Below the pieces are notes generated by a model, which was given only the letters and a program-made list of their open reading frames with translations, was not told the DNA's origin and did not search any database. Of a stretch of DNA of 46,271 nucleotides, positions 1,792-37,651 are shown piece by piece; positions within the stretch are counted from its first letter, which is position 1; each line of letters starts with the position of its first letter. The translations under genes were made by a program, and so were the position numbers. The stretch is from positions 1 to 46,271 of IMG/VR virus record IMGVR_UViG_3300044611_000053; one strand, given 5' to 3'. Source of the DNA: a virus.

Positions 1792-1979
1792 TATTCATCA
1801 TCCTTCCAGTCTTTATTTCTAATTGGATAAGTAATAGCCCATGCAAACATTGTTGCCATAATTGCTACACCAACAATTTGCTTGGCTGATCCGTCCAGTA
1901 CTACATATGCAATAAACATACCAAGTAAAGTCCATAACTGATCAATCATATCCTGCATTACTTTCTTTATTATTTTCAT
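1791..1979 (-). CDS. Small two-helix membrane protein
   Basis: 62 residues with two likely membrane helices (LWTLLGMFIAYVVL and IVGVAIMATMFAWAI) and a charged C-terminus NKDWKDDE. The start overlaps the upstream stop as ATGA, with AAGGA just before it, so it is translated in step with the exported protein. Together with the next small membrane protein it could be a holin/antiholin pair or part of a membrane complex with the exported protein. I do not recognise a specific family. Confidence 0.6.
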   Translation of the reverse strand: MKIIKKVMQDMIDQLWTLLGMFIAYVVLDGSAKQIVGVAIMATMFAWAITYPIRNKDWKDDE

Positions 1980-4897
1980 GGTTTCCTTCTCCTTATTCTT
2001 GGGTCTCCCCCGCTGGGTGCACCGCCACTTGAGCCTCCACCAGGTGTTGGGGTTGTTCCGCCTGCGGCTCTTGCTGCAGAGGCTGCTGCGTTAGTTGCCG
2101 CTCCTGCTGCTGCTCCTGCCACTGTTACAGCATTTAGGGCTGCTCCAGTTGCAACTACTGTTGCTACAACCATCTTGGTTGCTTCTTCTCTTTCTTCTTC
2201 AGTCATGTCTGCACCTATACTTCCAAGGGCAGCAATGGCTGCTCCTGGATCGCTAAACAATTCTTCTGTAAATGCTGCTATATCTGTAACTATTTCAATT
2301 TGTGCGCCTACTTCTGCTGTAATAACTACTTCTTGTCCGCTTTCGCTAGTACGAATTTCAACTGGTGTATCTGGTGGCAAGTCTGCTAATTTAATTCCAG
2401 CATCTGCTACTTGTTCTTTTGTAAGATTTTCACCTTCTGGCACTGATTGTATTAATGCATCAGCAACAATTTCTTTTTCTGCGGTAGACATATTTCCGTC
2501 AGTAGACACTAAGGCTACGATTGCTGCAACATCTTCTTTTGAAACTTCTCCATCAGATGCAAGTGCTTCAAGTACAGCCTCTTGATCTGCAGTAGAAACT
2601 TTTCCATCTTCTGCCAATGCTTCAATTAATTGATCAGTTTCTTTTGCATCAATTTCCCCATCTGCTGCCATAGACTCTGCAATTGCTTCAACTTCTGTGC
2701 TATCTATTTCCCCGTCTAATAATGCTTCATCAACCGTATTGTTTACTTCTTCTTCTGATCCCGTCACTGGTTCTGTATCAATTGGCTCTGTTTCCACAGG
2801 TTCTGTTTCTATAGGTTCTGTTTCTATAGGTTCTGTTTCTATAGGTTCTGTTTCTATAGGTTCTGTTTCTATGGGCGTAGTGTCTACAGGTTCTGTTTCT
2901 ATAGGTTCTGTTTCTATGGGCTCTGTCTCCACAGGTGTGGTGTCTACAGGTTCTGTTTCCACTGGCTCTGTGTCTACAGGTTCTGTTTCCACTGGCTCTG
3001 TGTCTACAGGTTCTGTTTCCACTGGCTCTGTGTCTACAGGTTCTGTTTCCACTGGCTCTGTGTCTACTGGTTCTGTTTCCACAGGTGTGGTATCAACTGG
3101 CTCTGTGTCTACTGGTTCTGTTTCCACAGGTGTGGTATCAACTGGTGTGGTAGTTACTGGTGTAGTGTCTACAGGTGGCACGACTACTGGTGTAGTGTCT
3201 ACAGGTGGCACGACTACTGGTGTAGTGTCTACAGGTGGCACGACTACTGGTGTAGTGTCTACAGGTGGCACGACTACTGGTGGTTCAACTGTTACAGGTG
3301 TGGGTGCTGGCGCAGGAGCAGGAATTGCATTAATTACTGCTTGTGCTGTAGCAATGACTGTTGGGGCTGCCAATACTGATTCTACTGCTGTTGAAACAAC
3401 TGCAATATCTGCTACTTTTGTAGTTAATGTTGTAGTTGCTGTCTCTAATGCAGTCACAGTATTTTGTGAAACAGTTGCTACTGGTGCAATAACTGTATTT
3501 GTATTTGCTGTATTTGTTGCAACAACGGCTGTAATTGCTGAGTTTAATGTAGCAATTTGTGCGTTTGCTGTATCAATTGCTGCCAATACTGTTGCATTGT
3601 TTGGATCTGGGGCAGGAGTAAATTCAGCGCCTTGACTGATTGTTCCAGTAAACCCTGTTGTAGTGCTTGTATTAACAATAGGAGTTAATGTACCTCCAGT
3701 AGCTTCTCTTACATTAAACCTAGCCCCATTTGGAATAGGACCAGTTACGCTAACGTCTGCTTGCCATGCACCATCTGAAGGATTAACATCCGCATTAAAT
3801 CTAACTTGAGTCATTTGTGTCTCGGCGGTAGTTAAAGGATAAACTCTAAGATCCCAGGCAACGCTCAGTGTATTAGTAGTTGTTGAGTATGTAATTCCAG
3901 ATCCATTACTCCATGTAGTCCAGTCGTATCCTGCTATAGATATAGAAGGTGCATTAGGAGTTGTATGATATGTACCACCTTCATTTACTCCAAAAGTAAT
4001 AGTTGCATTGGATCCAACATAAACATTGTTATATGTGACTCCACCCATTTGTAAATTAAATGGAAGGTTCATGCGGATACCCGCATCATCTGTATTTGCT
4101 AAAACATTTGATGTTGTTCCAACTGTGGCTACCAAAGCATTGACTGCATCTTGAGCATTATTAATAGCAACATTTGCCTGAGTTAATTGTGTCTGTGCCT
4201 CTGTAGTTGCGGTAGTTGCTGCTGCTACTGCCGTGGTTGCAGTTGCTACCGTTGCTGTTGCTTCAGTTACTGCTGTCTGTGCTGCTTGAACTGTAGTGGA
4301 GGCTGTTGCAGCCTGTGCTACTTCTGTTGCAATTGCTGTTGCTACTTCTGTAACTGTAGTTGGGGTCTGTGTCATTAATGGGGTTGCTGTTGCCAATACC
4401 GTTGCAGTTGCAGCCTCAACCACTGGAGTTGCTGCCGTGATAGCCGTTTGTGCTACAGCAACTTCTGGAGTCTGTGTTGTTGCGGTTACAGGTATTGCTG
4501 CAATTGCTGTGGTTACGGCAGTTACTACGGTAGTAACGTCTTGTGTTACTGTTGCTGCTGTTTCTACAACTGTGGAAACATTTGATACTTCTGCTACGGC
4601 AGTGGTGGCTGCTGTGACTGCAGTAGTTGCTGCTGCTACGGCCGTGTTAGATGTTGTTACTGCCTGTACTGCAGTCGCAATAGTTACTGTTGCTGTATCT
4701 GAGGCTTGTGCTGCTTGTGCTACTTCTGTTGTTGCAGTTGCAATGGCTGTATTTACTGCCTGCTGTGCAGGGCTTACAACAACCTGCTCTGCTGGAGGCG
4801 GGACATCATTGGCATGGGCCAGATCAGCTGGAGAGAATATCATCCATAATGTTAAAAATAACCCCACTAACCCTGATCTGATTAGTATGTTTTTAAT
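1976..4897 (-). CDS. Large exported repeat protein (probable ATT start)
   Basis: About 973 residues. With the ATT at 4897 as start, AAGGAG lies six bases upstream and the N-terminus reads as a complete signal peptide (KNILIR, hydrophobic core, AHA cleavage near 29). The later GTG at 4867 lacks a clear ribosome site and would remove the positive N-region. Order of parts: Ala/Thr/Val-rich low-complexity segment (30-260); a beta domain near 275-390 with LPFNLQMGGVTYNN and VGSNATITFG, like an SNG-type extracellular domain; a second Ala/Thr-rich segment; Pro-rich PPVDTTPVVV repeats; 5-residue TEPV/TEPI repeats (to about 709); six DG-containing helix repeats resembling EF-hand loops (about 715-840); a hydrophobic Ala/Val helix; and a Gly-rich tail ending RIRRRKP. 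Probably a cell-surface or virion-surface protein. Function unknown. Confidence 0.75.
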   Translation of the reverse strand: MKNILIRSGLVGLFLTLWMIFSPADLAHANDVPPPAEQVVVSPAQQAVNTAIATATTEVAQAAQASDTATVTIATAVQAVTTSNTAVAAATTAVTAATTAVAEVSNVSTVVETAATVTQDVTTVVTAVTTAIAAIPVTATTQTPEVAVAQTAITAATPVVEAATATVLATATPLMTQTPTTVTEVATAIATEVAQAATASTTVQAAQTAVTEATATVATATTAVAAATTATTEAQTQLTQANVAINNAQDAVNALVATVGTTSNVLANTDDAGIRMNLPFNLQMGGVTYNNVYVGSNATITFGVNEGGTYHTTPNAPSISIAGYDWTTWSNGSGITYSTTTNTLSVAWDLRVYPLTTAETQMTQVRFNADVNPSDGAWQADVSVTGPIPNGARFNVREATGGTLTPIVNTSTTTGFTGTISQGAEFTPAPDPNNATVLAAIDTANAQIATLNSAITAVVATNTANTNTVIAPVATVSQNTVTALETATTTLTTKVADIAVVSTAVESVLAAPTVIATAQAVINAIPAPAPAPTPVTVEPPVVVPPVDTTPVVVPPVDTTPVVVPPVDTTPVVVPPVDTTPVTTTPVDTTPVETEPVDTEPVDTTPVETEPVDTEPVETEPVDTEPVETEPVDTEPVETEPVDTEPVETEPVDTTPVETEPIETEPIETEPVDTTPIETEPIETEPIETEPIETEPIETEPVETEPIDTEPVTGSEEEVNNTVDEALLDGEIDSTEVEAIAESMAADGEIDAKETDQLIEALAEDGKVSTADQEAVLEALASDGEVSKEDVAAIVALVSTDGNMSTAEKEIVADALIQSVPEGENLTKEQVADAGIKLADLPPDTPVEIRTSESGQEVVITAEVGAQIEIVTDIAAFTEELFSDPGAAIAALGSIGADMTEEEREEATKMVVATVVATGAALNAVTVAGAAAGAATNAAASAARAAGGTTPTPGGGSSGGAPSGGDPRIRRRKP
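2941..3060 (-). repeat. Four identical 30-bp tandem copies
   Basis: The plus-strand 30-base unit TGTCTACAGG/TTCTGTTTCC/ACTGGCTCTG is repeated four times without change, coding for alternating VDTEP and VETEP. Confidence 0.92.
3161..3280 (-). repeat. Four identical 30-bp tandem copies
   Basis: The plus-strand 30-base unit TGTAGTGTCT/ACAGGTGGCA/CGACTACTGG is repeated four times without change, coding for PPVDTTPVVV. Confidence 0.92.
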
Positions 4898-8808: not shown

Positions 8809-8960
8809 CTTTTAGATTTCCTTAATCCAAATTTAGCAAGGTAAACGTAGATAGTCTCAACACTAGTTCCGCACTCCTTTGCAATTTCTTCTGGGGTCTT
8901 CTTATCCATAAGATACCGCTTACGCATAAAAACCTCTGAAGTATATAGTTTAGCAGTCAT
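8805..8960 (-). CDS. Small helix-turn-helix DNA-binding protein
   Basis: 51 residues from the ATG at 8960, four bases after the upstream stop; the longer frame to 9047 overlaps the upstream gene and has no support. KTPEEIAKECGTSVETIYVY (about residues 20-39) is a typical helix-turn-helix, followed by LAKFGLRKSKR with a basic tail. Likely a regulator or DNA-binding accessory protein. The stop overlaps the next gene as ATGA. Confidence 0.72.
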   Translation of the reverse strand: MTAKLYTSEVFMRKRYLMDKKTPEEIAKECGTSVETIYVYLAKFGLRKSKR

Positions 8961-8964
8961 ATTG

Positions 8965-9609
8965 TTATTTGTCAACTTCTGTGTCAATAACCTGATAATC
9001 ATAAGCGTTAGAGTCTTCAAGCATCCACTTATCGTAACTTTCAACATCCCACTTATTTGTATTAATGAGTCTTTGTATAACTAGATCCTTCTTGGTAACA
9101 AATGAAGGCTCCTTTAGTCTTACCCGATTATTTGGCTGAATTGCAAAGTTGCCATCGTCTCTTTGAATAACGTGACCACACTTGTGCTGACCTGGATTTT
9201 CTGAATACCCATCATCTAATATGTTTGTCTCTGGGTTGTGCCAATCCAGGGTAAACAAATATGTTCCAGGAACACTAGTTTTAGTTCTATCAATATAAGA
9301 CATTCTCATATTACTTAGGTTCTCAAACTTTGTTACTGAAACATATGGACTAAAAGAATTCCACAAAACAAGGTTGTGGATTGGCTCTTCTGGAACTCCT
9401 GGCTTAGTGCAAAAAGCATTAATTGGCATTCTCCACCAGATACCACCATCCTCCATTAAAAAATGGAACAAGGGGCTTCTACTTTTAATACTTGAAACAC
9501 CAAAAATAACACATGGAAAATATTTATCATGGCTATCTTCTTGGTCTCTTAAAAAGTTTCCACGAACATAGCATTCAATTGGTGGTATGTTTGCATTTAA
9601 CTCTGGCAT
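8965..9609 (-). CDS. Conserved phage protein of unknown function
   Basis: 214 residues from the ATG at 9609, which overlaps the upstream RuvC stop (TAATG) and is served by GGAG ten bases away. It begins MPELNANIPPIECYVRGNFL. It is rich in aromatic residues (GGIWWRMPINAF, LFTLDWHNPE) and has a Cys/His pair GQHKCGHVI. I recall related proteins in cyanophages and other large phages, where they are unassigned. No catalytic motif is clear. It sits between a Holliday junction resolvase and small regulators. Confidence 0.72.
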   Translation of the reverse strand: MPELNANIPPIECYVRGNFLRDQEDSHDKYFPCVIFGVSSIKSRSPLFHFLMEDGGIWWRMPINAFCTKPGVPEEPIHNLVLWNSFSPYVSVTKFENLSNMRMSYIDRTKTSVPGTYLFTLDWHNPETNILDDGYSENPGQHKCGHVIQRDDGNFAIQPNNRVRLKEPSFVTKKDLVIQRLINTNKWDVESYDKWMLEDSNAYDYQVIDTEVDK

Positions 9610-27879: not shown

Positions 27880-30800
27880 TTAGTCCCTTTGTGTCCTAAT
27901 TCTTTGTGAGTCAACTTGTCTAATTTGTGTCATAACAACTCTTGCAATATCCTCTGGATTTGCATCAGATTTAACATTGACGTTTAGATTATAATTATAC
28001 ACCTTCTCGCCCTGGTATGATCCATTATTCATAGCCTTCATTTTATTGGTGCCATATGAATCAACTGCATATTTGCTCATTACAAATTCTCCAGGAGTAA
28101 GCATTGCTGGAACAACATCTGTTCCTCTTGCTTTTCCACCTACCGCAAAATACTTAGGCTTAACCATTCCACCAGCAGCCATGTATCTAGGAACCATTCC
28201 ACCAGAAGACATAGCCATCATATCAAGTCCGCCGCCACCACCGCCACGCATATTTGGATCAACTGTTGGCAATGTTGCATCATATGCTTTTTGTTTTGCT
28301 TTAAGATCTGCTAAAAGTGCATTAATAATAGTGCTATTTCCAGTAAGAAGTCCTGCTTCATAATCTGCTTGTGCTTGATCAAGTTCTGTAACTGTGGCTA
28401 TAAATTTGTCTAGTGCTGCAATGTCTGCTGGAGTACTTTCTGGTGCTACATATTCATTTAACTGACCTGGAACAGGTCCACCACCTGCTGATAAATTTTT
28501 AAACGTACCCATGCTTGCAAATATTGCAGCAAGTTGCTTAGCATACTCTATTGCTTTTAAAATTTCACTTTGCAAATCAATTGTTTCTGCCTCTGCTCCA
28601 GCAATTCCTGCTTGAACCTCTATCCATTCAAGTTCTAAAGCATAAAGTTTATCTAATTCTGCATTCTTTTCATTTTCTATTGCAATTAAATTATCTTGCT
28701 TTGTTCTAAGTTCTGCTTGTGCTGCTAAAAGTCTTCCATTTGTTATTGCATAAATCTTATCTTCTTCAACACGAATGTCAAGTAAAATTTGTTTTCTTAG
28801 ATTTTCAAGAGGAAGAATGTTATCTTTTTTAATCTTTGCAATTTTGGCTTCAAGGATTTCCCTACCCTCTTCAAGATTGTAAATTGCTTGAGTTATTTCA
28901 AATTGGCGTTGCTCAATTTCTAGTCTAGTTTGACCACTAGCAGATCTTAGGTTTGCAATCTCTTGTTCTCTTGCTATGCTTAATAAGTCTCCAGCACCAG
29001 AGGCTGCTTTCTCTGCTGCTGTAGATCGCATATCTTGTGCTATTTGTGCTGCTGCAGAAATGTCTCCCTGTGACAAAGCATCTGCAAGAGATATTCTTTG
29101 TTTTTCCTGTGTAATTAAATCTTGATTTATTTCAGAGATTTTGGCTAATGCTTCTTCTTGTGCATCATATTTTTTATTAATTGACCCCGCTGCTTTGTCA
29201 ATTAAAGTTAAATCATTTGACAGGTCGGAAGTTTCTTCTTGAAACACTGCAATTGGTTCATCAAACTTGCTAGAAATCTCTTCTTGAATTGTAGTAATAG
29301 CTTCTTCAAATTTTCTAAGTGGGACTGTAACCCTATTTTGAATTTCTGCTTCTTTTGCATTTATTCCTGTTTGAATGCTTTCAATTTCTTTTTCAATAGC
29401 GTCAACAGTATCTTTTGCTTCTTGAACTGACTGCTCACCATCAAAGATTTTTCTAGCATACTTACCATCAATAGCCTGCTTTGTTAATGAGAAAAACTTA
29501 TTAACCTTTTGTGCTACTTTATCAAATTCGTTTTGTGCTCTTTGAAGAGGAGTTAACTGATCATTTGCATAGTCTGTTTGAACTTTCTTTAATTCTTTAT
29601 ATGCATCTATTAAGATTTTAGTGTCTTCAACATTTGTTGTATGACTTAGCGCTAAAGCAAAATTAGCATCTGTAAGCATTTCTGCTGCCTGAACATTATC
29701 TAATCCTGCATCCTTTAACTTACCAAACTCTACTCTTTGTGCTGCTATTGATTTAATTGCTTCTTCTGTTGATGAACTATATTCTCCTAGTACTTTTGCA
29801 TCATATGCCTTCTTTACTAGTTCACCAGTAGGTGTTAGTTTAACTATTCCATTTTCAAGATCTGTTGTACTTACATACGCTTTTTTAACAGCCTCATCTA
29901 AACCACCAACAAAGTTAATAAAGTCTAGGTTTCCTGATTGATCTAACAATGCTTGGTTTAACCCAACAAACCCCTTTAGAAGTAATCCATCATTAAATAC
30001 ACGCTTAAGTTCTTTTAGTCCGCCCTCTGCGTTAATGCTTGCATTTCTTGTTAATTTTAATGTAAGCAATAAGTCGTCTAGAGTTGTATCTCTACTTCCT
30101 TTTGTATCCCCGCCAGTTGGCCCACCCTTTGGAACCTTTGGCTTAATCTGTGCAGGAGCATACTGTGGCTTTGCTGCTTGCATTGCAAGATCTTCTCTTA
30201 TTTTTGCTTGACCTGCAGGACTGTTTAAGAAATTCTCAACAGTCATTGCTCCGCCTGCAGCCTTTAATCGTTTTTGTGTTTCTGCTTTCATTTGTTCTGG
30301 AGTTATTTCTTGAAAAGCAGTAATGACTGTTAACATTGCAGTCTTCTGTTGGTTCTCAGGTAGGCTCTTAATCCAATCAAAGTTTGCTTTAACTGCTTCT
30401 AACGCTGCAATAAATCCTTTATCTGCACCAGCCTTACCTGGTCCACCCTTACCATTTTCTGTTGCAATTAAATCAACAACTGCTTTAACGCTAACGTCTT
30501 TAATATTGTTTACTTTGTTTAATTGACCAGTTAGTGTTCTTAACTTACCAATAGCATCACCCTTAAGGAATGCATTAATGTCAAAGTCTTTTGGCATAGT
30601 ATTAAGAATTGCAAGGGTTGCATTTAAATCATCAAACTGAGTCTTATCTTTAACTAAATTAATATCAATAAATAGTTGTTTCTTTGTTTTATCATCTAAC
30701 TTTTCAATGTTTAGGTTACTTAATAAAGTCTGAATCTCTCCAGCCCCGTGTGTTGTAACCATAAGATCAAGATTTTTGGTTAATCCTTCATTATCTCCCT

Positions 30801-33800
30801 TAAAGATTCCCATTAAGTTTGTCAGTAGCAATGGGTTTGTTCCAGATCCAGCAAGTGCTGTTATCTTTAATTCTAACGACTTGCTTCCAGTTCCTGCTGC
30901 TAGTTTAAGCATTGGGTCAAGGAATGGTTCACTTTGTGTACCCTTAACTTTTGCTCTTGCCTGTTGTCTAGCACCTTCCATAAATGCAGCGGTGACACCA
31001 CTATCATTTTTTGTTAACTTGAAGGCATCTTGCATTACCTTAAGGTTGTCTGCATTTGATTTGTTAAGTTTTGCATTATCTTCTAAATTTTTATCCGTTG
31101 CTTCTTTAATTTGATTTTGAATATCTAGTTTTGCTTTTGCTGTTTTTGCTGCTTTTAAATCAACATTAAGGCTTAGTAATTTTTTATCATACTCATAGTT
31201 AGTTGCATCAATTTGAGCCTGTGTAATTTCAAGGTTTTGAACAGAGGCAGCACCTGCTGCAGAGGCAATTGATTTATTTGTTCCAATCTTATTAAGGAAT
31301 CCTTTAGGATTAAATATACCCCTTATGCCATCAGAAGATGCAGATTCTGTAAGTCCAGATATAATGTTTTTAATATTATCCTGGCTTTCTTTAACTATCT
31401 CAAGTCTAACTCTAATTGGATCCTTTAATATGTCTGATCCATCTGGTCCAATAATAGAAGTTAAGTCTCCAACAATTTTTGGATATAAAGACATATCTTG
31501 GAAATCTACAGCAACTTGTCTTGCAATATCTCCCGCTTGTATTCCAGTTATTACTCCGTCTGAAACAAGACCAGATAATTGAAGGGCAAAACTTTTAACC
31601 GCTGGACCAGTTCCAGATTTAAGCAAGTCATCTTGGAATCCCTTAAATATTTCTTTTCCAACTTCAGATGCTGCAAAGGAAGTTCCAAACTGTTGACCTG
31701 CACGGTCATAATTTTTTGTAAATTTATCAGATGAAGCATTCTGTCTTTTAATTGACATAACTTCTGATGCGCTAAATGTATTTGTTAAGGCTGCAATTTT
31801 TTTCATTTTCTCTGTTGTTGCAGAGATAGAGTCTATATAGTCAGATTGTTTTTTTGCAATCTTTATGTTATTATCATTTATAATTTTCTGAATAAGTGTT
31901 CCAGCGGCAAGAACAGTAACAATTGCTGCTAACGCTCTACCCCATGGAGTCATAGAGGCAACCATATTTAAGATTCCAGTCTTTAACATTGGTAAAAGCA
32001 TTGTAAGAACTTGAAGACCAATAGCAAGTGGAAGAATCTTGTGGGCAAGTTCTCCAATTTTTCCAGGTAAGAATGAAGCACCAATTGCCACCATACCAAA
32101 TGTGTTTGCCATAGTTGTAATTTTTGGTCCAAGGTTTTTTGTTTCTTTGGTTACCTTTTTGTTTTCATCAGTTGACTCGTTAATAGACTCTACAAGTTTA
32201 GATTGTGCAACTCTTGTCTTTTCTGCAATTTGTGATTGTGTTGTTGACCCGTCAGAAAATGGGATGGCTGTAGATCCAACTGCAGGAGCCTTTTCATATC
32301 CTGGGAAAAAAACTTTGCCAATACTCTTTGCTGGTGTTTTTACTACTCTTTTCTTTCGTGGAACTCTTGTAAATTTATTGTCTGCCAATTTTCCAGTATC
32401 AGGCTTTGCTCCCTTTGGCTTTTTCTCACCCTTAATTTTTTCTATCTTTCCAGTTTTTTCATCTAGAAGAGATTCTTTATTTGTAACAAATGCTGGCTCT
32501 ACTGCAGAATGCATTTTATGAATACCACGCCAGTCTGTATATTTACCCTTTACAAGTCTTCTATACATGTCTCTATATGCTTTGGCTTCATTTGGATCTG
32601 TCATTGGTATTGATCTAAGAGTTTCTTTTACTATTGGAGTAATTCTTTCTATTTCAGCAATCATTGCTCTGTGGTATTGATCTGCAGTCATCCCCTTTGG
32701 AATATCTGCAGTTGAAAAAGCAAAGTCTTTACTTAGTCCACGACCTCCTGGTGCTCCAAGTAGATTAATTTCTGCTTGACCAAGCATTGAGTTTATGTTA
32801 GCAGAATAATCTCTTCTTCCAGATGCTCTATCAAATACTCCTGCTGCACCTGGATCTGTCACAATATTACCAGAAAGGTTTCCTCGTTTTAGATCTTTGT
32901 CTCCACGAAGTAAAGATGCTGTTAATTGTTTAAAATATTGTTTTTTTGTAAATTTTCCTGTCATTTTTTCTTCTGCAAATCTTGGATCAAAGGCAGATTC
33001 TAAAACAATAAGTTTTCTTCTTTTATTATTTGGATCTGTCATAGTTCTCATAACTTGTTCAGGTGCTGTTAATCCAATTGCTTTATGAATTTTGTTTATA
33101 TTTAATTCAGCCCTTGCAGATTTTTCATCAACCATTGGTTTAACAAATACTCTAGTACCATCTGGTTTTTCGTATACTCCACCGATAGACCTATCACCTG
33201 GAAAACTATATCCTGCTGATTTTGCTATTTGCTTTCCAAAGTCTGTAGGTTTAACTTTTGCCATGCTACTAGACTTTACATCTGCATCAATCCTTTTCAT
33301 TTCTGCTAAAGATTCTTTACTTAATCTTTTTCTTGTTACTTTAACTTCTTGAGACGGACCAAGTTCAGGCCTTAGACCTACGTTATTACTTTTTGAACTT
33401 GCTCCTCTTGCCAAAAATACATGCGCCTTAAGTTTTTCATCGTAAACGTATTCACCGCCAACCCTTTCTTTGCCACCTCTACCTTTTCCTTTTATAATAA
33501 CATGCTCGTTATCTGGAAGTGGAAAGTCTGTATGGCTTCCAATTACACTAGATAGTTTTCTTGGTTTGCCATCTTTGTCTAATGGGGTTGGTTTTCCTTT
33601 ATACTCTGTAGCATCTCCATCGATTATAGTAACTGGCAAATTTGCAAGTGTTCCTGCGGCTATGGCTTTTCTAAACTTTTGTTCTAGTATTTTTGGATTA
33701 TGAGATAAACCTTTTCCAAGGCCATACTTTGATTTGGACTCAAGGAGTCCACGCATTGACTCATATGTTTTTGTTATTTTTGCTTCTGGTGGCAGATCTT

Positions 33801-36468
33801 TAAAAGATTGTTTAATTATATCATCTGTGACCTTTCCACCATTTTTTGCCGCCTCTTCTTTAATTTTTTTCAACATTGCATCATCAATAATTTTGTTATC
33901 TGTTCCGTGAAGATTTTCTATCATAAACCTTTGTTCTGTTGCATTCCATTTTCCTGGACCTTGAGATAACCACTCTTTTTCAAAAACATTAATTGGAACA
34001 CCACTTTTTTTAGCAAGTTGATTGTTTAATTCTGCATCAAAAGAAAACCCTAAGCCTCCATAATTTAAAACACTTCCTGATTGTCCAGTATTAGCCCTTA
34101 CTATTCCATCTACAGCATTTATTCTTGCTTTGTCATATGCTGTTAATCCAGGAGTTTGTTTTATATAGTCTTGTGCAAGAAGGGATTCTGCTTTGCCGAC
34201 ATGTGTAAATGCATCTTTTGAAGACATCTTTGTTTCTTTTTTACTTGCTTGAGTTACTTTTGTAGCACCGCCATTAAATCCTTGAAGTTTTCCATTAACC
34301 ATTGCATCAATAATTGGTTGGAACTGAGGATCTTGTGCAACTGGTGCAGGAATAACTGCTTCTCCAGGAGTAAGCATGGATGCTACGCTATCTTTATTTC
34401 CTGTACCTGGAACATAAGTCGCTCCCTTGGCATATGAGAATGGAATATTCTTTACTCCAGGCTTTGCTCCAGTAGCAGCCTTACCAGCCCTGCCAGCCAT
34501 CATTCCTGGATTTGCCATAGCAAATTTTGCTGCAGCAACTGTTGCTGCAACATATGCTGAACGCAGTGCTGACACTGCTCCTGTTTCTAACTCAAACTGT
34601 TGTGTAAGTCTAGTATGTGCTTGATTAAGAGATGCAGCAACTGTAGTGGCTTCAAGTTGTTCTGCAGTTAAATAGTTAGTTGTTGCTGCAAGGTTAGATG
34701 AGTCTCCACTCATTTTTAAGAATCCAACACGGAGTGCTAAGAATAATTTAATAATATTAGCAAGACCATTAGCCAACAAACCAAATGTCATAAGTAATAC
34801 TGGACCAATAAATCCAACAAGGCCTGTTGCAATTACAAGAAACTTTTTTGTTCCTTCTCCTAAATTGTTAAATTTATCAAGAACATTTCCAACAACCTTT
34901 ACAACTGGTGTAAGTGCTTTTAAGAATGCTTCTCCAATTGGAACAAGTGTAAGTTTTAGTTTTTCTATTGATTCCCTAAAGTTAACACCAACAGCATTTT
35001 CTACTGTCTTTAATTCTCGTTCTGATATAATTGCAAGTTCTTCTACTGATGCCCCAGCAAGTTGTAAAACCCTTGATGCCTGAGTTCCATCTTTTGTTAC
35101 GTTCTGAAATAGTGTTGATAAGCGTGAAAATTGAAACTTTCCAAAAAGTTGCTCAATTGCACGAGCACGGTTAAGTGGATCTAAGGTATCTAATGCTTGA
35201 GAAAAACCAATTACTGTGCTTCTGATATCACCTTTGTTTGCTTCAACAATTCCTTTAATGTTAATTCCAAGATCTCCAAGGAATGCACTGGCTTTTGCAG
35301 ATGGATTAATTAATGATGCAAGTCCAGACTTTAATGCGTTAGCACCTTCTGATGCATTTATTCCACCCTCCTTCATAGCGGTAAGGAAGAATGCAAGATC
35401 TTCTACATCTCCACCAAGTTGTTTAATAACTGGTCCAGCCTTTGGAATAGCAATTGTTAAATCTTCAATAGATACTACTGTTTGGTTTTCAACTGCGTTA
35501 AGAAAGTTTATCTTGCTTGTTAAATCTTTAGTGGCAACACCAAAAGCATTTGTTAGAGATATTGTTGTTTCTAGTGCCTGCTCTTGTTCGACCCCGCCAA
35601 GTACTGCAAGCCTTGTTGCTTCTGCTACTTGTGCTGTAAGTTCTGCACCAGTCTTACCCATAGCAGCAGCATCTGCAGCCATCTTAACGGTATCTGCAAC
35701 TGCTACACCATACTTTGTAAATTCTTTTGCAAGAAGTTGAATGTCTGCAAGGGCTTTAGTTGTTTCGTCTGATGTGGTAAACATGCTTCCATAAACACGC
35801 TTAAATCTAATGGCCTGTTTTTCAAGATCCATAAATACTTTTCCAGCAACACTTCCAAGGTATAGAAGTGGAACAGAGAATCCAACCATTAACTGACGGC
35901 CAGCCCATTGAGTATTCTTACCAAAGTTTAAAAGATTTGTTGAACCTTGTCTAACTAGTTGATTAAATAGTGCTTGCTTTTGTGCTGCTATGGCTATCTG
36001 TGTTGCTGCATCCTTCATGTTTAAAGAATGCGGAGTGATAGACATTGCTCTTGTTGCGCCCTGTGCATCCTTACCCATTTTAATATACTGGGTTTGCATC
36101 TTCTTTACACGCTCTTGTGCTACTTTGGCAATTGTGTCAAATTCTGATTTAAAAAGTTTACCAAATGTTTTAGTTGATCCAGCGGCATATTTAAAGTATT
36201 GCCCCATAGACAACTTATTAGTTTCAAGAGCATGGGTAAATGACTCAGTGGATGTTCTTACAAGACCCATCTGAGCATGGAATTTACCAGTAGCATTGAT
36301 TGCATTTAGAAGGTTAGTCTGTAAACCTTTTTGAGCGATAGCAGCCGAAGCACTACCTTTTGCCACCTGTTGATGAAACGTGGCAATCTGACGTTGTAAA
36401 GCCTTGAGTTCCGCCAATGCTGATGAGGCATTTATATTTATGCCTATATTAGCATTAACGTCACTCAT
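27880..36468 (-). CDS. Tape measure protein with embedded kinase-like domain
   Basis: 2862 residues; ATG with GAGGTG seven bases upstream. Residues about 200-440 match the TP901 tape-measure core (KEFTKYGVAVADTVKMAADA, LAFFLTAMKEGGINASEGAN). Membrane-type segments lie near 540-585 and 1450-1530. Two copies of the MLTPGE motif are at 698 and 2789. Between 747 and about 1340 is an insert unlike a tape measure. Its second half has a kinase-like order: GGVY (about 1096), Lys1110 in VFVKP, Glu1121 in ARAELN, DLKRGN with Asp1192/Asn1197, and VFDRAS with Asp1213. The C-terminal third has long coiled coils (about 2280-2660). It sets tail length and probably reaches the cell membrane. The kinase call is an inference. 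Confidence 0.9.
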   Translation of the reverse strand: MSDVNANIGININASSALAELKALQRQIATFHQQVAKGSASAAIAQKGLQTNLLNAINATGKFHAQMGLVRTSTESFTHALETNKLSMGQYFKYAAGSTKTFGKLFKSEFDTIAKVAQERVKKMQTQYIKMGKDAQGATRAMSITPHSLNMKDAATQIAIAAQKQALFNQLVRQGSTNLLNFGKNTQWAGRQLMVGFSVPLLYLGSVAGKVFMDLEKQAIRFKRVYGSMFTTSDETTKALADIQLLAKEFTKYGVAVADTVKMAADAAAMGKTGAELTAQVAEATRLAVLGGVEQEQALETTISLTNAFGVATKDLTSKINFLNAVENQTVVSIEDLTIAIPKAGPVIKQLGGDVEDLAFFLTAMKEGGINASEGANALKSGLASLINPSAKASAFLGDLGINIKGIVEANKGDIRSTVIGFSQALDTLDPLNRARAIEQLFGKFQFSRLSTLFQNVTKDGTQASRVLQLAGASVEELAIISERELKTVENAVGVNFRESIEKLKLTLVPIGEAFLKALTPVVKVVGNVLDKFNNLGEGTKKFLVIATGLVGFIGPVLLMTFGLLANGLANIIKLFLALRVGFLKMSGDSSNLAATTNYLTAEQLEATTVAASLNQAHTRLTQQFELETGAVSALRSAYVAATVAAAKFAMANPGMMAGRAGKAATGAKPGVKNIPFSYAKGATYVPGTGNKDSVASMLTPGEAVIPAPVAQDPQFQPIIDAMVNGKLQGFNGGATKVTQASKKETKMSSKDAFTHVGKAESLLAQDYIKQTPGLTAYDKARINAVDGIVRANTGQSGSVLNYGGLGFSFDAELNNQLAKKSGVPINVFEKEWLSQGPGKWNATEQRFMIENLHGTDNKIIDDAMLKKIKEEAAKNGGKVTDDIIKQSFKDLPPEAKITKTYESMRGLLESKSKYGLGKGLSHNPKILEQKFRKAIAAGTLANLPVTIIDGDATEYKGKPTPLDKDGKPRKLSSVIGSHTDFPLPDNEHVIIKGKGRGGKERVGGEYVYDEKLKAHVFLARGASSKSNNVGLRPELGPSQEVKVTRKRLSKESLAEMKRIDADVKSSSMAKVKPTDFGKQIAKSAGYSFPGDRSIGGVYEKPDGTRVFVKPMVDEKSARAELNINKIHKAIGLTAPEQVMRTMTDPNNKRRKLIVLESAFDPRFAEEKMTGKFTKKQYFKQLTASLLRGDKDLKRGNLSGNIVTDPGAAGVFDRASGRRDYSANINSMLGQAEINLLGAPGGRGLSKDFAFSTADIPKGMTADQYHRAMIAEIERITPIVKETLRSIPMTDPNEAKAYRDMYRRLVKGKYTDWRGIHKMHSAVEPAFVTNKESLLDEKTGKIEKIKGEKKPKGAKPDTGKLADNKFTRVPRKKRVVKTPAKSIGKVFFPGYEKAPAVGSTAIPFSDGSTTQSQIAEKTRVAQSKLVESINESTDENKKVTKETKNLGPKITTMANTFGMVAIGASFLPGKIGELAHKILPLAIGLQVLTMLLPMLKTGILNMVASMTPWGRALAAIVTVLAAGTLIQKIINDNNIKIAKKQSDYIDSISATTEKMKKIAALTNTFSASEVMSIKRQNASSDKFTKNYDRAGQQFGTSFAASEVGKEIFKGFQDDLLKSGTGPAVKSFALQLSGLVSDGVITGIQAGDIARQVAVDFQDMSLYPKIVGDLTSIIGPDGSDILKDPIRVRLEIVKESQDNIKNIISGLTESASSDGIRGIFNPKGFLNKIGTNKSIASAAGAASVQNLEITQAQIDATNYEYDKKLLSLNVDLKAAKTAKAKLDIQNQIKEATDKNLEDNAKLNKSNADNLKVMQDAFKLTKNDSGVTAAFMEGARQQARAKVKGTQSEPFLDPMLKLAAGTGSKSLELKITALAGSGTNPLLLTNLMGIFKGDNEGLTKNLDLMVTTHGAGEIQTLLSNLNIEKLDDKTKKQLFIDINLVKDKTQFDDLNATLAILNTMPKDFDINAFLKGDAIGKLRTLTGQLNKVNNIKDVSVKAVVDLIATENGKGGPGKAGADKGFIAALEAVKANFDWIKSLPENQQKTAMLTVITAFQEITPEQMKAETQKRLKAAGGAMTVENFLNSPAGQAKIREDLAMQAAKPQYAPAQIKPKVPKGGPTGGDTKGSRDTTLDDLLLTLKLTRNASINAEGGLKELKRVFNDGLLLKGFVGLNQALLDQSGNLDFINFVGGLDEAVKKAYVSTTDLENGIVKLTPTGELVKKAYDAKVLGEYSSSTEEAIKSIAAQRVEFGKLKDAGLDNVQAAEMLTDANFALALSHTTNVEDTKILIDAYKELKKVQTDYANDQLTPLQRAQNEFDKVAQKVNKFFSLTKQAIDGKYARKIFDGEQSVQEAKDTVDAIEKEIESIQTGINAKEAEIQNRVTVPLRKFEEAITTIQEEISSKFDEPIAVFQEETSDLSNDLTLIDKAAGSINKKYDAQEEALAKISEINQDLITQEKQRISLADALSQGDISAAAQIAQDMRSTAAEKAASGAGDLLSIAREQEIANLRSASGQTRLEIEQRQFEITQAIYNLEEGREILEAKIAKIKKDNILPLENLRKQILLDIRVEEDKIYAITNGRLLAAQAELRTKQDNLIAIENEKNAELDKLYALELEWIEVQAGIAGAEAETIDLQSEILKAIEYAKQLAAIFASMGTFKNLSAGGGPVPGQLNEYVAPESTPADIAALDKFIATVTELDQAQADYEAGLLTGNSTIINALLADLKAKQKAYDATLPTVDPNMRGGGGGGLDMMAMSSGGMVPRYMAAGGMVKPKYFAVGGKARGTDVVPAMLTPGEFVMSKYAVDSYGTNKMKAMNNGSYQGEKVYNYNLNVNVKSDANPEDIARVVMTQIRQVDSQRIRTQRD

Positions 36469-36487: not shown

Positions 36488-36820
36488 TTAGTTATTTGCA
36501 AGCACTGTATTTAGTAGTGCGTTAGCATCACTAAGTTTTACTCCAGATGCTGCTTCAATAATATTATAGACTGTTGGTAGATCTAAAACATCTTCCAACT
36601 TTGCTAGATCTCCAGCCAATTCTGGCTTGTACTGCTCCATTGCAATTTGTACGCATTCAATAAGAAGAGCCATAGACTTCTCATTATCTTCTGCTACCAA
36701 GGCTACCTGCTCAAACTTCTTCATAAATGGGCGAAGCAAAGAAATCTTTAAAGGACGTACCTTTATCTTTGTTCCATCCATAAGCGTGAGTTCTGCCCCC
36801 TCATACACTGTTGTTGCCAT
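36488..36820 (-). CDS. Tail assembly chaperone, short paralog
   Basis: 110 residues; ATG with AGGAGG seven bases before it. It lies directly before the tape measure gene. It is clearly related to the first 110 residues of the next upstream protein: both start MAT-x-x-Y, share PLKI, LR-x-FM-x-x-FE, an ECV motif (IECVQIAMEQYKPE here, VECVRICMKQYCPE there) and DLPT/DMPT before YxI. This matches the G-type chaperone that coats the tape measure during tail building. It has its own promoter. Confidence 0.82.
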   Translation of the reverse strand: MATTVYEGAELTLMDGTKIKVRPLKISLLRPFMKKFEQVALVAEDNEKSMALLIECVQIAMEQYKPELAGDLAKLEDVLDLPTVYNIIEAASGVKLSDANALLNTVLANN

Positions 36821-36888: not shown

Positions 36889-37599
36889 TTATTTCATTAG
36901 GCTTGGATCTCTTTCGTCTCCATAATCAAGACCCATTCCAATTCCAAACCCTGCTTTCTGGGCATTAACTCCTTGTAGAGCCAAGACATCATTGCTATCT
37001 GTTGCTTTACCACCGCTGAATACTCTTGCTTTCATGTCTTCCCATTCTTTCTGTCCTTTGTTTTCATTCTTATCCCCTTCTAAATCCACGCCCTGAATTG
37101 CTGCAAGAAATTTCTTTTCTGAATAATCTAATTCTCTAAGAACTTCAAGAGTAGCCATAAGTTCTGGCATTGATAGGGAGGTTTCTAGTTCTTGATAATC
37201 TTTCCATATACCCAGCAAAAATACTTCTGCTTCAAGTTTTGCTAAGTCTAACGTTTCCCAGGTTTCTCCACTTTTTCCTGCTTGATCTTTTACTGGCTCC
37301 TCAGATTTTTGATTAATTTTAATTCCAGCAGAAGAATCTAATATTTTATAAATTGTGGGCATGTCAAAGTTATCTTCTATATCTTTAGCGGTAGATGATA
37401 TTTCTGGACAGTACTGCTTCATACATATACGAACACACTCTACCAGGACAGCGATAGATTCATCATCACTTTTTGCTTCTTTTATATTTTCAAATATCTC
37501 CATAAACTCACGGAGGTACCTTATCTTTAATGGTATGATTTCTAACTCTTTGCCATTAAATAAAGATATTATTTGATTTTTATATATTCTGGTTGCCAT
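36889..37599 (-). CDS. Tail assembly chaperone, long paralog
   Basis: 236 residues from the ATG at 37599; a start further up would run into a terminator hairpin. Residues 1-110 match the short paralog. Residues about 120-236 add a T-like domain: LEAEVFLLGIWKDYQELE, MATLEVLRELDYSEKKFLAA, then MKARVFSGGKATDSNDVLA and a Gly-rich end. In most siphophages these parts are joined by a -1 frameshift; here they are one open frame. A TATAAT overlaps the ATG itself, so how this gene is transcribed is unclear. Confidence 0.8.
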   Translation of the reverse strand: MATRIYKNQIISLFNGKELEIIPLKIRYLREFMEIFENIKEAKSDDESIAVLVECVRICMKQYCPEISSTAKDIEDNFDMPTIYKILDSSAGIKINQKSEEPVKDQAGKSGETWETLDLAKLEAEVFLLGIWKDYQELETSLSMPELMATLEVLRELDYSEKKFLAAIQGVDLEGDKNENKGQKEWEDMKARVFSGGKATDSNDVLALQGVNAQKAGFGIGMGLDYGDERDPSLMK

Positions 37600-37615
37600 T
37601 ATACTTAATTCTACC

Positions 37616-37651
37616 ACAAACAAAAAACCCACCTCCAATTAAGGAAGTGGG
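37616..37651 (-). terminator. Rho-independent terminator after the major tail gene
   Basis: Minus strand hairpin CCCACTTCC-TTAATT-GGAGGTGGG with one mismatch (37628-37651), then TTTTTTGTTT. Classic shape. Confidence 0.88.

Follow-up and report, generated by a model that had tools for sequence, protein, structure and literature searches.

Does the tape measure protein (TMP) of an uncultured virus contain a protein-kinase-like domain, and, if it does, what might such a domain do during infection? Current thinking gives TMPs the roles of ruler and DNA-entry channel and, beyond these, no more than wall-cutting parts. The stretch of DNA that was analysed in full, referred to here as the window, is a 46-kb virus record (46,271 nucleotides) with genes including those for portal, prohead protease, virion structural, major tail, DnaE, RecA, DnaB and primase proteins. 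Its 2862-aa open reading frame is matched by Pfam PhageMin_Tail (PF10145, E = 2.5e-24) and by PHROG 10030 (E = 7.7e-98), is homologous to the TMP of phage TP901-1 (E = 1e-13), and meets profile membership over the conserved TMP region; it is a TP901-type tape measure protein, as the original prediction, made from sequence alone, had read it. The nearest matches to its N-terminus come from Streptomyces and other actinophages (34-36% identity), and one cyanobacterial MAG contig was matched at 40%. The features discussed below are collected in Table 1.

Table 1 Features of the tape measure protein and their positions in the window
Feature	TMP residues	Window position	Strand	Basis
TMP, 2862 aa, single open frame		27880..36468	-	ORF reading, profile matches and TP901-1 homology
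Conserved N-terminal part	1-735	34264..36468	-	Found with and without kinase
First hydrophobic (membrane-type) segment	541-570	34759..34848	-	Aligns with infection-essential TP901-1 TMP region (PMC5099701)
Domain A, exchangeable module	~741-965	33574..34248	-	Model, comparison of relatives
Predicted kinase-fold domain core	~1060-1325 (modelled 1037-1344)	32494..33291	-	Model, fold search, conservation
β3 Lys	K1110	33139..33141	-	Invariant, 95/95 unique cores
αC Glu	E1121	33106..33108	-	Invariant in unique cores
Predicted catalytic loop and DxG, R1188-x-D1190-x-D1192-L-x-x-x-N1197...D1205-x-G1207	1188-1207	32848..32907	-	Conservation
Rejected metal-binding candidate	D1213	32830..32832	-	Variable
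Second hydrophobic region	1474-1531	31876..32049	-	Downstream of cassette

The original prediction had placed a protein-kinase-like domain at about residues 1085-1340 of this protein, on the strength of five short motifs in kinase order. All five are present where they had been read, with GGVY starting at TMP residue 1096, VFVKP at 1107, ARAELN at 1118, DLKRGN at 1192 and VFDRAS at 1211. In an alignment of 95 unique homologous cores, the window included, pairwise identity has a median of 48% and a minimum of 24%, and 20 of 308 columns are invariant. Five of the six residues named beforehand (G1097, K1110, E1121, D1192 and N1197) fall among these 20 columns (hypergeometric P ~4e-6, columns treated as independent), which places the motif pattern well beyond chance. 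The reading of Lys1110, Glu1121, Asp1192 and Asn1197 as kinase residues therefore held, and R1188, D1190, D1205 and G1207 are likewise invariant in 95/95 cores. The sixth residue, Asp1213, failed as a metal-binding candidate, since it is Asp in just 29/95 cores and D1205, within the invariant DxG at 1205-1207, is better placed; conservation of the motifs in homologs thus held except at this position, where D1205 replaces D1213. The Gly-rich turn held in part, as G1097 is invariant but GGVY forms the end of the β1-β2 loop and is not the nucleotide-binding loop itself. The family consensus reads R-x-D-x-D-L-x-x-x-N-(7)-D-x-G, and from sequence and model we infer that its last Asp, D1205, is probably the equivalent of the Asp of DFG. 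The spacing of 8 between N1197 and D1205 is shorter than that of typical kinases.

Because the pattern LRGDKDL was among those used in the second scan and could bias the conservation, 27 unique cores fetched by TMP N-terminal patterns alone were analysed apart. K1110, E1121, R1188, D1190, D1192, N1197, D1205 and G1207 were again invariant in these, and no degenerate copy that had lost catalytic residues was found among them. One bias remains, as cores were counted only from a domain-profile score of 25 bits upward; the weakest full core accepted had 133 bits, a margin wide enough for a copy short of a few catalytic residues still to be counted. Values of dN/dS in the kinase domain range from 0.05 to 0.47, from which we conclude that it is under purifying selection. 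These data bear on the possibility that the domain is a catalytically dead kinase-fold module, used in the tail for binding or as a spacer. In its favor, TMPs are structural proteins, the catalytic elements are unusually spaced, and activity is often lost in kinase-fold proteins. Against it, catalytic residues are usually lost in dead kinases, whereas here all catalytic positions are invariant at 48% median identity and 0/27 unbiased copies are degenerate, and we regard a dead module as very unlikely. The domain is likely to be catalytically active as a phosphotransferase, an inference made without activity data.

An AlphaFold2 model built with the sequences of 51 relatives (mean pLDDT 86.2, pTM 0.84) is arranged in the order β1 (1079-1083), β2 (1097-1100), β3 (1106-1112, with K1110), αC (1115-1130, with E1121), β4, β5, αE (1175-1188), catalytic loop (D1192 and N1197), a short β7/β8 hairpin, DxG (D1205) and a helical C-lobe whose helices lie at 1228-1321, after the catalytic loop. 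The β1-β2 loop, 1084-1097, carries the invariant G1086 and G1097. In this predicted topology the β3 Lys, αC Glu, catalytic Asp and Asn and metal Asp follow one another as is required of the kinase superfamily, and, from topology and fold matches rather than measured distances, K1110, D1192, N1197 and D1205 are inferred to cluster in one pocket. With Foldseek against the PDB, CtkA came out on top (E = 9e-4), followed by HipA and other kinases (E = 1e-3 to 4e-2), an AvrPtoB-BAK1 complex entry excepted; these E-values are modest and the TM-scores of 0.2-0.36 are low, which a divergent kinase would be expected to give. VIA-align gave Z-scores of 11.9 for CotH, 10.8 for CtkA, 10.2 for PI4KIIalpha, 9.1 for HipA and 8.7 for Fam20C, and all 50 of its rows belonged to the kinase superfamily bar LepB of Legionella (4jw1, Z 9.2), for which a kinase fold is unconfirmed. 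The fold matches are led by the HipA/CotH/CtkA/PI4K-like side of the superfamily. As a control, the neighboring domain A, itself confidently modelled (pLDDT 85.9), was passed through the identical pipeline and gave a best Z of 3.0 and zero matches with E <= 0.001; the pipeline therefore does not yield kinase matches indiscriminately. Residues ~1060-1325 thus very likely adopt a protein-kinase-like fold, albeit one predicted by a model and not solved. The kinase-fold order proposed at the outset held in both structure prediction and fold search, and the proposed extent held in part, with a core that reaches slightly beyond the start at 1085.

Membership of any named kinase family was not shown, as nothing significant was found in Pfam, PHROGs, NCBIfam, PADLOC or PDB sequences. 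The eukaryotic-type kinase profile PF00069 was unmatched by any of 51 members and by any of 8 related records, and the eukaryotic-type HRD and DFG motifs are not met, the loop being RxDxDLxxxN and the DxG having a variable middle residue. Membership of HipA was not supported, with no HipA_C Pfam match and an hhalign score of 19.6, nor was that of CotH, with no Pfam match and a score of 13.7. Neither score is significant, because both lie within the range of the controls, in which column-shuffled profiles reached 19.2 (HipA) and 19.0 (CotH) and an unrelated TMP profile 20.8. The best HipA profile alignment pairs the β3-αC regions, including K1110 and E1121, and the best CotH profile alignment stops at the catalytic Asp region; being non-significant, neither is evidence by itself. 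We therefore describe the domain as kinase-like by fold and residues, and as a new sequence family.

Its likeness to known enzymes is accordingly one of structure. HipA and HipT share the predicted fold (4pu4, Z 9.1; 8ezr, 8.8), but the window domain is embedded in a TMP and no HipB-type partner was noticed in passing. CotH (PF08757) provides the top VIA match (5jd9, rmsd 4.0 over 214 residues, 9% identity), yet there is no profile-level similarity, the CotH enzymes are spore-coat kinases and the host protein differs; CotH kinases fused to C-type lectin domains have been reported in phage genomes (PMC8008677). CtkA of Helicobacter pylori and PI4KIIalpha are alike in fold, whereas sequence identity to these and to PI3K/PI4K-like enzymes is just 10-14%. 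As the fold is shared with PI3K/PI4K-like enzymes, the choice between a protein and a lipid substrate is left undecided. The kinases of polyvalent proteins resemble the window domain in belonging to large multidomain phage proteins that are believed to be injected when the phage infects (Iyer et al. 2017, PMC5512222). They are described as lacking the entire C-terminal subdomain, a feature not met by the window domain with its predicted helical C-lobe, and the term tape measure is absent from the main text of that paper. In the viral-library Foldseek search the best matches were phage proteins, several of them named ADP-ribosyltransferase, portal or PI3K/PI4K-like. HSTV-2 gp16 and other BFVD phage PI3K/PI4K-like or portal/ART-fused proteins matched at E = 1.7e-5 to 1e-3, and gp16 has a catalytic loop, DRHxGN, that resembles DLxxGN, and a gene among structural genes. 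Unlike the window domain, these matches are separate or head-associated proteins, and a profile comparison of gp16 with the kinase domain gave no significant score.

A scan with residues 741-1420 found 33 viral loci, and as the more distant of these mostly match just the segment homologous to residues ~1055-1325, that segment stands out as a separate domain. A search with the aligned domain returned at least 187 matching IMG/VR stretches, 80 of which were kept for analysis, and a scan with the TMP N-terminus only returned >590, of which 80 were kept. The TMP N-terminus is also borne by 138 of the 148 kinase ORFs; eight of the remaining ten are truncated upstream by the end of the locus, and the other two represent a single contig with a split gene. 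Loci overlap between the scans, so the 148 ORFs are not independent phages. Among all matches examined, then, the kinase domain is confined to TMP-type ORFs, and its carriers are a group of uncultured siphophages. No relatives of the domain were found in isolated phages (four queries), in the plasmids searched or in the cellular genomes searched, two of the latter searches being weak and without a positive control. A search around the most divergent copy, L139, recovered that copy alone. In the contig with the split gene (L014, the same contig as L112), the N-terminal TMP ORF ends at 1263 aa, at ~8945-8982, and the kinase is in another frame; sequencing error and a real split are both possible.

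The kinase is also an exchangeable part of these proteins. Unique TMPs longer than 2000 aa fetched via the N-terminus comprised 31 with the kinase and 30 without, and among TMPs with 65-80% identical N-termini it is present in some and absent in others. Kinase-less TMPs align to the window before residue ~735-960 and resume at ~1000-1490 onward, with the stretch between replaced. One relative (L004) is 88% identical to the window TMP in the N-terminal part, 97% in the kinase and 53% in the C-terminal part, with dS of 0.49, 0.10 and 0.68, respectively (values above ~0.6 being approximate only). A second (L039) shows the reverse, with 98% identity in the N-terminal part and 75% in the kinase. 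These opposite patterns indicate that the kinase has recombined as a unit. Domain A occurs both with and without the kinase and is highly divergent in near-identical TMPs (50% identity in L001, in which the N-terminus is 98% identical); it has no PDB fold match that would make it a second known enzyme. A THVG(G) motif is found at the N-terminal end of domain A. Six kinase-less TMPs (L117, L119, L136, L153, L163 and L191) have other unnamed modules in the same place, at TMP residues ~700-1300; a conserved S/T/A-H motif (ESHI, DRAHV, DRSHT, ASHIQE) is present in several of these, and no Pfam family over the cut-off identified the kinase-less cassettes with a known enzyme. In TMPs such as L060, L070, L072, L086 and L148, LTPGE motifs (as in GTxxVPxxLTPGEFV) recur at the start of the cassette region, in the middle and at the C-terminus, and may mark module borders.

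The kinase cassette is flanked by the two hydrophobic regions of the TMP. TP901-1 no longer infects when the first of these regions is deleted from its TMP and can do without the second, and a cytoplasmic location is predicted for the residues in between (PMC5099701); in T5, TMP segments have been proposed to form a membrane channel (PMC10038345). The TP901-1 TMP is homologous in its N-terminal half and its first hydrophobic region is aligned with that of the window, but it has only 937 aa and an inter-hydrophobic stretch of 129 residues, in which the kinase domain would not fit (PMC5099701). The cytoplasmic side of the kinase stretch is thus an analogy with a prediction made for another phage, and it is not secure, because the second region is dispensable in TP901-1 and in several kinase-bearing TMPs the first segment alone scores at the threshold used.

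With these results, we propose, at a probability of about 0.6, that the kinase in the TMP is an active phosphotransferase, delivered so as to modify a target in the host; its activity, its substrate and the delivery step are all inferences. The TMP would exit the tail during infection, its hydrophobic segments would insert into the host membrane and the kinase-bearing loop between them would end up facing the cytoplasm, where the kinase would use host ATP to phosphorylate a host protein or lipid. AMPylation or another modification is a less likely alternative, and the purpose may be to aid DNA entry, take over the host or evade defence. There is precedent in the T7 kinase, of which host RNA polymerase and RNase III are substrates (PMC8008677), and in the polyvalent-protein kinases (PMC5512222). 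Action on the host at DNA injection had been suggested by the original prediction; it is plausible and not shown, and our slight preference for it rests on topology and on literature for another TMP. Against delivery, it is unexplained how a folded domain of ~30 kDa would fit in or pass through a tail lumen of ~40 Å.

Two other sites of action were considered for an active kinase. It could act in virion assembly inside the infected cell, on tail or head proteins or on the TMP itself, with no injected effector. The TMP, a late structural protein, is in the cytoplasm before it enters the tail, and kinase genes are also found within the structural regions of other phages, such as that of HSTV-2 gp16 and the HipA-like kinase gene between portal and MCP in Gratiaviridae (PMC8008677). 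However, the kinase is missing from about half of the related TMPs, which assemble all the same, so it is dispensable for assembly as such, and the swapping and the position between membrane-type segments better fit an accessory, host-facing role, making an assembly role unlikely. Alternatively, the target could lie outside the cytoplasm, in the periplasm or cell envelope, as with secreted Fam20C. The secreted or surface kinases Fam20C and CotH are among the fold matches, and siphophage TMPs contact the envelope, some with peptidoglycan-cleaving parts (PMC10038345). ATP is, however, scarce beyond the cytoplasm and the TP901-1 topology prediction places the stretch inside; we consider such a target very unlikely.

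The preferred reading, a delivered kinase, can be extended to a bolder one in which the inter-segment stretch is an exchangeable effector slot, where the kinase and unnamed domains are swapped and from which the tail delivers them with the DNA; we put this forward only tentatively, and the balance is slightly against it. Phage kinases, phage-injected enzymes and kinase-fold domains in other phage virion-region proteins were already known. We found no report of a kinase in a tape measure in the literature searched, with subscription journals and preprints largely outside that search, and going by this literature a kinase-fold domain built into a TMP is new. If the reading is correct, TMPs would bring along signalling enzymes active during the first seconds of an infection, ahead of any phage gene expression, and the tape measure would double as an injected effector. 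The isolated domain, with its predicted catalytic residues, would offer a handle on the membrane side at which each TMP part arrives.

Several other genes of the window, all on the minus strand, were noted in passing. The upstream neighbors of the TMP, at 36488-36820 and 36889-37638, both match PHROG 10504 over ~100 aa and may be a duplication at the tail-chaperone position. A 183-aa protein at 904-1455 has a Pfam match to the proteasome subunit family of NTN hydrolases (PF00227, E = 3e-5). The partial protein at 1-654, truncated by the end of the record, has a signal peptide and a likeness, by eye only, to subtilisin-type proteases (IAIIDIAID ... GHGYNMA). An extensin-like, proline-rich protein of 963 aa is encoded at 1976-4867, where the local GC content is 44% compared with ~37% around it.
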